A stretch of 58,876 nt of DNA, from positions 1 through 58,876 of the forward strand of contig NZ_JAFIRA010000021.1 in the NCBI RefSeq assembly GCF_022848905.1, written 5' to 3'. The notes under the pieces are model-generated. The model had not been told where the DNA came from. It worked only from the letters and a program-made list of their open reading frames with translations, and did no database searches. The position numbers and the translations under genes were made by a program. Source of the stretch: Thermostichus vulcanus str. 'Rupite' (GTDB taxonomy: Bacteria > Cyanobacteriota > Cyanobacteriia > Thermostichales > Thermostichaceae). Within the stretch, counting starts at the first letter, position 1; each line of letters opens with the position of its first letter. Shown in pieces: positions 13,217 through 36,660 of the stretch.

Positions 13217-13759
13217 ATGACTTTCCCTTCTGGCCCTCCCAGTGTTACGCAAAAGCCTTCTGCACAGCTCATTGGCCAGGTTTTACTGCAGGCTGGATTG
13301 CTCACGGAAGCTCAGGTACAGGTGGCCTTGCAGGATCAGTCTTACTGTGGGGTGCGATTTGGCGAAATTTTGGTCACCCGTGGCTGGATTAAACAAGAGA
13401 CTGTAGATTTTTTGGTAGATCAGTGGCCCGAATTGTTGCAACGACGCGACAAAATGCCCCTGGGAGAATGTTTGCAAGCTGCGGGTCTACTGACACCTTT
13501 TCAGGTAGAACAGGCGGTTCGGGAACAACGCATCAACGGTATGCGCATCGGTGCGGTCATTGTTTTGAATGGTTGGTTGAAGAAAAACACGGTCGATTTC
13601 TTTTTGCAAGGCTTGGCCCCCAATCGCGTTACCGAGTCGCCTTTCATCACTAAGCCTCGCACAACGGGCCACCCTCTTTCCAAGCCAACCTCCAACACGG
13701 TGAAGAGTCAGGGGGAGGAGCTGGTAGACGAAGACATTGACCTTGAGGATCTTAACTGA
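13217..13759 (+). CDS. Two-repeat GspE/MshE N-terminal-like protein
   Basis: 180 residues with two tandem helical repeats. Each has the pattern G..L..AGLLT..QV..A...Q....RIG.I.V..GW[IL]...TVDF (residues 18-75 and 80-138), with a charged tail ending DEDIDLEDLN. The repeats resemble the N-terminal domain of GspE/PilB/MshE ATPases, a fold that can bind c-di-GMP in MshE, but no ATPase follows. Such short stand-alone proteins occur in cyanobacteria; their role is unknown to me. A TATTAT box at about 13145 may be its -10. It stands alone between secG and aroG. Confidence 0.7.
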   Translation: MTFPSGPPSVTQKPSAQLIGQVLLQAGLLTEAQVQVALQDQSYCGVRFGEILVTRGWIKQETVDFLVDQWPELLQRRDKMPLGECLQAAGLLTPFQVEQAVREQRINGMRIGAVIVLNGWLKKNTVDFFLQGLAPNRVTESPFITKPRTTGHPLSKPTSNTVKSQGEELVDEDIDLEDLN

Positions 13760-13934
13760 CTCGGTTGAAAGGCTTGCCCTGAGTGTGGGTTGAAGGGCGA
13801 GTAGTGACTCCAGTGCCTGAAGAGCAGAGCTTGCCGTACGACTGCAGAACTGCAGAATTTAACCTTCTCTTGGTGCAGTTCCGTCCCCTTTTCGGGTATA
13901 TTCATCTCATACAGGTTTTGAGTTCTCTCTGACC

Positions 13935-14009
13935 ATGTCCTTGCGTGCCGCCCACTTTGGCTACTTTACCTTCCCCTGGCAGTGTCCAGGGCGGATGGGT
14001 GGCGCGTAA
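13935..14009 (+). CDS. Aromatic amino acid leader peptide upstream of aroG
   Basis: A 24-codon ORF, ATG to TAA, with the run HFGYFTFPW: three Phe, one Tyr and one Trp within nine codons. It lies about 100 bases before the DAHP synthase gene and is followed by a terminator-like hairpin. Bases 13942-13953 (GCGTGCCGCCCA) can pair over twelve positions with the segment ending GGGTGGCGCGT near 14007. Inside, CCCTGG and CCAGGG form a further stem. This is the layout of ribosome-mediated attenuation, where scarcity of charged tRNA-Phe/Tyr/Trp stalls the ribosome and changes RNA folding. No strong ribosome-binding site is seen. Function is inferred. Confidence 0.6.
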   Translation: MSLRAAHFGYFTFPWQCPGRMGGA

Positions 14010-14041
14010 ACAATAACCAAAGTTTACCCAAGTCAGTCCTG

Positions 14042-14071
14042 AAGCCCTGAGCCTAGTGCCGGGGTTTTTTT
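14042..14071 (+). terminator. Putative attenuator terminator upstream of aroG
   Basis: AAGCCCTG can pair with CGGGGTTT around a short loop (one bulged A), followed by seven T residues at 14065-14071. It lies between the leader peptide stop and the aroG start, so readthrough would be needed for aroG expression. A further six-pair stem, GTAAAC/GTTTAC, just upstream (about 14006-14030) could be part of the antiterminator. Confidence 0.6.
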
Positions 14072-14111: not shown

Positions 14112-15197
14112 ATGAAGGACAAATCCATGCCCCCCCAAACCGACAACTGCAATATCCAGGAGGTGACGCCCCTGATTGCCCCTAGCCTGGTCAAAGCCGA
14201 GTTCCCCCTCACGGAAACGGCGGCCAAAGTCGTGCTCTCTACCCGGCAGGCCATCCGCAACATTATCCACGGACGGGATCCCCATCGCTTGGTGGTGATT
14301 GTGGGTCCCTGCTCCATTCATGACCCGGAAGCTGCCTTGGAGTATGCCCATCGCCTGAAGCAGGTTGCGGATCAAACCCAAGAGCATCTGGTGATTGTGA
14401 TGCGTACCTACTTCGAGAAACCTCGCACCACAGTGGGCTGGAAAGGGCTGATCAACGATCCCCACCTGGATGGCTCCTGTGATATTGCTACCGGATTAAA
14501 ACTGGCCCGCTCGATTCTGCTACGGGTGAATGAGATCGGCTTGGCCTGTGCCACCGAAATGTTGGATCCAGTGACGCCACAGTACACCGCTGACTTGGTC
14601 AGCTGGGCGGCGATTGGGGCCCGCACCATCGAAAGTCAAACCCACCGGGAAATGGCCAGTGGCCTCTCGATGCCCGTCGGCTTCAAAAACGGTACCGATG
14701 GTCGTCTACAAATTGCCCTGAACGCCATCCTTTCCGCCAGTCACCCCCACAGTTTTCTGGGTATCGGGCAAGACGGCATGACTGCCCTGATCAAAACCAG
14801 TGGTAACCCGGATCGGCATATTGTCCTGCGGGGCGGGGGAGGTAAAACCAACTATGGCCCTGAAGATGTGGAACGGGCGGCTCTGCTGATGGAGGACCAA
14901 GGGATCCCGCGCTCCGTGATGGTGGACTGCTCCCACGACAATTCCCAGAAAGACTACCGCAACCAGGGATCCGTCTGTCGGGAGGTACTGCGGCAATACC
15001 AAGCCGGTCAGCGGGCCTTGATGGGGGTGATGGTGGAGAGCAACCTCAACCCTGGCAAGCAAACCTGGTGCGAAGGTGCTTCCCTCAAGTACGGCGTTTC
15101 CATTACCGATGGCTGCATTGGTTGGGAAGAAACCGCAGACCTGCTGCAGGAGATGGCGGCGACAGTAGCGGGGGGAGCCTTGGCCCTCAGCCACTAG
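14112..15197 (+). CDS. aroG: 3-deoxy-7-phosphoheptulonate (DAHP) synthase, class I AroFGH type
   Basis: 361 residues, family length. It condenses phosphoenolpyruvate with erythrose 4-phosphate in the first step of the shikimate pathway. Diagnostic segments are VVIVGPCSIHDPEAALEYA, MRTYFEKPRTTVGWKGLIND, the KNGTDG loop, and RGGGGKTNYG, with metal ligands in CSHDNS and the late DGCIGWEET. An ATG at 14127 is an alternative start. It is preceded by the aromatic leader peptide and hairpin, so expression is probably attenuated by aromatic amino acid supply, in addition to the feedback inhibition usual for this family. Confidence 0.96.
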   Translation: MKDKSMPPQTDNCNIQEVTPLIAPSLVKAEFPLTETAAKVVLSTRQAIRNIIHGRDPHRLVVIVGPCSIHDPEAALEYAHRLKQVADQTQEHLVIVMRTYFEKPRTTVGWKGLINDPHLDGSCDIATGLKLARSILLRVNEIGLACATEMLDPVTPQYTADLVSWAAIGARTIESQTHREMASGLSMPVGFKNGTDGRLQIALNAILSASHPHSFLGIGQDGMTALIKTSGNPDRHIVLRGGGGKTNYGPEDVERAALLMEDQGIPRSVMVDCSHDNSQKDYRNQGSVCREVLRQYQAGQRALMGVMVESNLNPGKQTWCEGASLKYGVSITDGCIGWEETADLLQEMAATVAGGALALSH

Positions 15198-36489: not shown

Positions 36490-36660
36490 GTACCTCGCAG
36501 AATAGGAATGGCGTTCACTGCAACAGACGGCGGGCATTCTGGCTGGGGTGAAATCACCCTTCACAGCTGCGGGACAGCGACGGTCTTGCACCGTACTTTC
36601 CCCCTTACCTCCGACGGCTGCTCCCCGACGGAACCGCTGACTCTAGGGTGGGTTCTGTGG
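36490..36660 (-). ncRNA. Cobalamin riboswitch
   Basis: Read on the minus strand, this shows the conserved cobalamin aptamer: GGGGAAAGTACGGTGCAAG, the paired CGGTGCAAGACCG (36581-36593), GCTGTCCCGCAGCTGTGA, and the B12 box AGCCAGAATGCCCGCC (36529-36544). It precedes hupE by about 60 bases in the same direction. Binding of adenosylcobalamin normally shuts off the downstream gene. The outer boundaries are approximate. Confidence 0.95.

Follow-up and report, generated by a model that had tools for sequence, protein, structure and literature searches.

A predicted ribosome-mediated attenuator upstream of aroG in the cyanobacterial family Thermostichaceae and its probable acquisition together with the gene

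The aroG locus and its upstream region

The gene aroG and the leader that precedes it lie on the forward strand of a window of 58,876 nucleotides, the whole stretch of DNA analysed here, from Thermostichus vulcanus str. 'Rupite' (assembly GCF_022848905.1, contig NZ_JAFIRA010000021.1; Table 1). DAHP synthase, the aroG product, starts aromatic amino acid synthesis, and the PF00793 assignment thus places the gene in the pathway that makes the amino acids proposed to be sensed by the leader. A PF00793 search found aroG as the sole type I copy in the source genome, and no type II DAHP synthase was found in any of the eight available genomes of the family. A second type I DAHP synthase domain is encoded in two of the eight (G002:C47:3960-4685 and G007:C227:32303-33040).

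The neighbouring gene upstream (13217-13759) is on the same strand as aroG and varies between the source strain and its relatives, while the leader and aroG remain together. The hexamer TATATT, reported by a first-pass annotation of the window, was found at 13897-13902 and may serve as a -10 element; the form TATA[T/G/A]T is kept in five of the six genomes of the genus and is shifted in the sixth (G001). A simple promoter scan scored no full match to a consensus sigma-70 promoter upstream of the leader, and no Shine-Dalgarno sequence was seen by eye before the leader ORF.

Table 1. Positions of the aroG leader elements and of aroG in the window.
Feature	Position	Strand	Basis and remarks
-10 promoter-like box, TATATT	13897..13902	+	Sequence; start site putative
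Leader peptide ORF, 24 codons, MSLRAAHFGYFTFPWQCPGRMGGA	13935..14009	+	Predicted; ATG at 13935, TAA at 14007-14009
Outer stem, 5' arm	13941..13954	+	RNA folding; 82% of cells paired over 8 genomes
Regulatory codons, His-Phe-Gly-Tyr-Phe-Thr-Phe-Pro-Trp	13953..13979	+	F, Y, F, P and W invariant in 8/8 genomes
Arm 1, CCCUGG (Pro-Trp codons), pairs with arm 2	13974..13979	+	Paired in 8/8 genomes
Arm 2, CCAGGGC, still within the ORF, pairs with arm 1 or arm 3	13986..13992	+	1:2 and 2:3 both 100% paired, 8 genomes
Outer stem, 3' arm, overlaps stop codon	13996..14009	+	RNA folding
Arm 3, GAAGCCCUGAGC, 5' arm of terminator	14041..14052	+	100% identical within, 89% between genera; masked folding
Arm 4 of terminator, then T7 at 14065-14071	14058..14071	+	Present in 8/8 genomes
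aroG, type I DAHP synthase, 361 aa	14112..15197	+	PF00793, 300 bits

Leader ORF and RNA structure

The short ORF carries the peptide HFGYFTFPW, as the first-pass annotation had described, with five aromatic codons out of nine in the window, and a related ORF rich in codons for the pathway products precedes aroG in all eight family genomes, which represent three genera. The family consensus reads F-[G/F]-Y-F-[T/S]-x-P-W; between genera glycine is replaced by phenylalanine and phenylalanine by tyrosine or serine, and the aromatic content is kept.

The leader RNA folds with -57 kcal/mol (z = -2.45 against shuffles). Two nested stems around the aromatic codons and a hairpin with seven Ts before aroG had been noticed earlier, and all three are part of the minimum-energy structure, which contains an inner stem (13974-13979 with 13986-13991), an outer stem (13941-13954 with 13996-14009) and a bulged terminator stem (14041-14052 with 14058-14068), the T-run ending 40 bases before the first aroG ATG at 14112. 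A simple promoter and terminator scan did not detect the terminator hairpin, probably because its stem is bulged. An intrinsic terminator between ORF and gene is present in each of the eight genomes, the hairpin ranging from -12 to -16.5 kcal/mol and being followed by a T-run. The earlier reading had lacked an antiterminator; such an element is formed by 6 bp between GCCCUG (14044-14049) and CAGGGC (13987-13992). This 2:3 pairing is formed in 100% of cells in the eight-genome comparison as against at most 50% for slid versions, and the 1:2, 2:3 and 3:4 pairings can all form in essentially all eight family sequences. A further hairpin, GUAAAC...GUUUAC (14006-14027), lies at the leader stop codon; all six genomes of the genus keep its arms, the loop being variable, while it is absent from the other two genera of the family; it is perhaps a pause hairpin.

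In Firmicutes, leader RNAs of amino acid genes use T-box, riboswitch and TRAP-like systems, which raises the question of whether a protein or a ligand controls this RNA, with the ORF being incidental. No Rfam 15 family reached its gathering score on the leader and the conservation follows the aromatic codons and the attenuator arms, so that, precedents in Firmicutes notwithstanding, such control is considered extremely unlikely here. Known Rfam leaders (Trp_leader, Phe leader, T-box) were rejected for the same window, whose only match is a cobalamin riboswitch elsewhere (36512-36653, reverse strand; RF00174, 49.1 bits).

Conservation within the family and chance expectation

Six of the eight family genomes belong to the source genus. 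Within the genus, nucleotide identity reaches 97% in the aromatic core and 100% in arm 2, compared with 65% in the 5' UTR; between genera the corresponding values are 75%, 85% and 28%. Across genera the flanks of the leader fall to about 28-43% identity while the codons and all four arms persist. The alignment of aroG upstream regions that had been proposed as a check thus shows aromatic codons and terminator kept in eight of eight genomes between diverging flanks, and none of the eight retains aroG having lost the ORF or the terminator. The compensatory stem changes looked for in the same check were seen at two outer-stem pairs, each changed on both sides, but overall covariation among these eight close sequences is not above that of shuffles. 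No double change affects the 2:3 pairing in the eight sequences, and the family 2:3 duplex on its own does not differ significantly from duplexes with a shuffled arm 2 (p 0.06-0.31); support for the switch in the family comes from its position, from its invariance next to variable flanks, and from independent cases.

A leader was scored where a short ORF with at least five Phe, Tyr or Trp in nine codons had a stable T-tailed hairpin no more than 130 nt downstream. All eight family members scored, as against one of 3,600 dinucleotide-shuffled aroG upstreams. The hairpin and T-run might in principle terminate the gene at 13217-13759, the ORF being a chance aromatic stretch, as T-tailed hairpins between genes on the same strand are common. 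This reading is hardly credible and was rejected: a -10-like box and the ORF intervene between that gene and the hairpin, other strains have a different upstream gene but the same linkage of ORF, hairpin and aroG, the ORF is conserved in three genera, and the shuffle frequency given above speaks against chance.

Outside the family, no leader was scored in 38 other cyanobacterial aroG upstreams. The pattern TAYTTY-N6-CCNTGG-N7-CRGGGC occurs exactly once per genome in the eight family genomes, and 3 of the 137 other cyanobacterial genomes searched contain it. Within the order, a single further genome was found (G008); its AroG is of the ordinary cyanobacterial kind and is not preceded by a leader. 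The trpE upstreams of the same eight genomes showed no consistent Trp-rich ORF with a terminator, and the attenuator is therefore not obviously common to the trp branch.

A different mechanism is conceivable. The TnaC peptide responds to tryptophan by halting in the exit tunnel of the ribosome, and FGYFTFPW might likewise be arrested by a free aromatic amino acid instead of by scarcity of charged tRNA. The 97% identity of the core within the genus and the Pro-Trp that follows the aromatic run in all eight genomes would suit such arrest. Across genera, however, aromatic content and not the exact residues is kept, related AroG leaders show many different aromatic orders, and Pro-Trp is also accounted for as RNA arm 1. 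Moreover, arrest of the TnaC type would induce on amino acid excess, the opposite of what a biosynthetic gene requires, unless the logic ran the other way round. Nascent-peptide arrest is thus regarded as very unlikely, and ribosome stalling for want of charged tRNA is preferred.

Masked folding and the proposed mechanism

The switch was modelled by masked folding, in which the RNA is hidden up to 12 nt past the stalled A site, and footprint edges of 8-15 nt were compared. In the free RNA, the 1:2 and 3:4 pairings dominate, with 3:4 at 0.97 or above in all eight genomes. With a ribosome stalled at the second conserved Phe codon, 2:3 reaches at least 0.96 in all eight before arm 4 is made, and stalls at Phe, Tyr and Phe leave 2:3 dominant in transcripts ending at arm 3, with weaker 2:3 values in one genome (G002) for stalls from the first Phe to the Tyr codons. 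With the ribosome at the stop codon, the terminator returns to at least 0.98 in all eight. In thermodynamic terms only, the antiterminator is thus exclusive with the ORF stem and the terminator, and is freed by stalling, in eight of eight genomes. For the whole transcript at equilibrium, the terminator is favoured even under stalling in G000 (third Phe), G005 and G006, and the model consequently requires 2:3 to form before arm 4 is made. Moving the footprint edge over 8-15 nt leaves the switch intact, save at the Trp codon; stalling there is borderline, since an edge of more than 10 nt already extends into arm 2. From this behaviour of the model, Phe and Tyr are the likely signals, with Trp uncertain.

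Together, these results suggest that the leader is very probably a ribosome-mediated transcription attenuator of aroG, a gene which entered the family by horizontal transfer, probably together with the attenuator, the donor being a lineage akin to the AroG clade whose genes carry leaders. The resemblance to pheA and trp attenuation on which the first-pass annotation had based its proposal of an aromatic attenuator for DAHP synthase is strengthened by the conservation in eight of eight genomes, the antiterminator and the masked-folding switch. According to this model, RNA polymerase would start near 13909 and a ribosome would translate the 24-codon leader. When Phe-tRNA or Tyr-tRNA, possibly also Trp-tRNA, is scarce, the ribosome would stall on UUU-GGC-UAC-UUU-ACC-UUC and keep arm 1 (CCCUGG) unpaired, so that arm 2 (CAGGGC) could pair with arm 3 (GCCCUG), the terminator would not form and aroG would be transcribed; as in the classical model, the antiterminator would have to form first, ahead of arm 4. 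When aromatic amino acids are plentiful, the ribosome would reach the stop codon and cover arm 2, and when no ribosome translates the leader, arms 1 and 2 would pair with each other; in both situations, the 3:4 terminator would form and transcription would be expected to end before aroG.

Origin of the gene and its leader

The AroG proteins of the three genera are 75-76% identical to one another. Their nearest relatives outside the family are from Nitrospira (60-67%) and from the metagenome-assembled genome (MAG) Myxococcales bacterium B7T1B8 (59%); other cyanobacterial AroGs share about 50-57% with the family protein. In the tree, the family AroG joins Nitrospira with a support of 98, both falling within a clade (99) with 28 AroGs from the class of MAG B7T1B8, and a topology holding all cyanobacterial AroGs together was rejected (p-AU = 0.0014). 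The family AroG is of a non-cyanobacterial type.

By the scoring described above, leaders were found at 4 of 65 aroG upstreams from other lineages, at none of 39 from Nitrospirota (L048-L060, L075, L158-L182) and at no fewer than 19 of 30 from the class of MAG 'Myxococcales bacterium B7T1B8', to which L061 belongs. In this class the leaders include FAYFGFAWW, AYFFGFTWW, FFFTYPWF and QYFGWFF, and related AroG leaders in general are rich in Phe, Tyr and Trp in many different orders. In the related leaders, arm 2 is complementary to the 5' arm of the terminator (combined p about 1e-17, uncorrected for relatedness). The terminator arm in the class of MAG B7T1B8 is often GCCCCGAG, close to GCCCTGAG in the source genome, a resemblance that points to common descent, although GC-rich arms of this kind are widespread.

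A Phe/Tyr/Trp-rich leader ORF and a terminator were observed before aroG at L061, L062, L067, L086, L100 and L128-L155, from Myxococcota, Desulfobacterales and Chloroflexi MAGs. At L062, from a Desulfobacterales MAG, the leader ORF is separated from aroG by a tandem pair of T-tailed hairpins.

Most simply, the leader would be an old feature of this AroG clade that reached the family along with the gene and disappeared in Nitrospira, an independent gain being the alternative to be kept in mind. Gene and switch probably arrived as a unit, out of another bacterial phylum. The fuller proposal, that aroG moved between phyla with its own, still working attenuator, as part of a broad, apparently undescribed class of Phe/Tyr/Trp attenuators that is common in one Myxococcota-related class, lost in Nitrospira and retained in the cyanobacterial family, is put at an even chance. 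The leader might instead be a relic that arrived with the foreign aroG and has given up its regulatory role in the cyanobacterial host; the non-cyanobacterial clade of the protein and the leaderless Nitrospira relatives would be compatible with this. The persistence of the codons and the four arms across three genera with flanks that have diverged nevertheless implies continuing selection, and a non-functional leader is considered very unlikely.

Novelty and comparison with known systems

To our knowledge, cyanobacteria are without Rho. Should the leader work as predicted, cyanobacterial transcription and translation would be coupled tightly enough for a ribosome to steer RNA polymerase, and the leader would provide a natural reporter for charged aromatic tRNAs. 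If the transfer is true, a biosynthetic gene would have crossed phyla with a cis-acting RNA switch, which may have persisted after transfer since it needs no foreign regulator protein. The leader would also mark a point at which the first enzyme is controlled, of use in engineering thermophilic cyanobacteria for aromatic compounds.

The first-pass annotation knew of no established cyanobacterial case for this gene, and this was borne out: according to a 2016 survey of leader peptides (PMC4833913), reliable evidence for attenuation in cyanobacteria is lacking, and no established leader-peptide attenuation in this phylum was found in the open-access literature. New here are the occurrence in a cyanobacterium and the apparent movement of a gene with its attenuator; the kind of attenuator, including its use at DAHP synthase genes, is already known. 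The aroG leaders of the Myxococcota, Desulfobacterales and Chloroflexi MAGs apparently constitute a widespread, undescribed class of attenuators, and literature searches found no paper describing those of the class of MAG B7T1B8, Polyangiaceae, Desulfobacterales or Chloroflexi.

The closest functional parallel is the established attenuator aroR-aroF of Corynebacterium glutamicum (Neshat et al. 2014, as described in PMC11802643 and PMC4046766), a leader with Phe-Tyr-Phe before a DAHP synthase gene, at which ribosome stalling under Phe limitation raises transcription; the reported response is to Phe and not to Tyr. Both systems place an aromatic leader peptide before a DAHP synthase gene and are likened by function, whereas they belong to different phyla and the cyanobacterial run also holds Trp. 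The aroG leaders of the class of MAG B7T1B8, Polyangiaceae, Desulfobacterales and a Chloroflexi MAG share with the cyanobacterial leader an aromatic ORF, an arm that follows the aromatic run and is complementary to the 5' arm of the terminator, and the terminator itself, and the L061 leader has the same spacing, FxYFxFxW, although peptide order and length vary among them. Like pheL-pheA and trpL-trp of E. coli, the cyanobacterial leader combines regulatory codons in a short ORF with 1:2, 2:3 and 3:4 pairings that exclude one another and with a T-tailed terminator. The E. coli leaders precede other genes, whereas the cyanobacterial leader mixes three aromatic amino acids, and both its arm 1, which falls on the last regulatory codons, and its arm 2 lie within the ORF.
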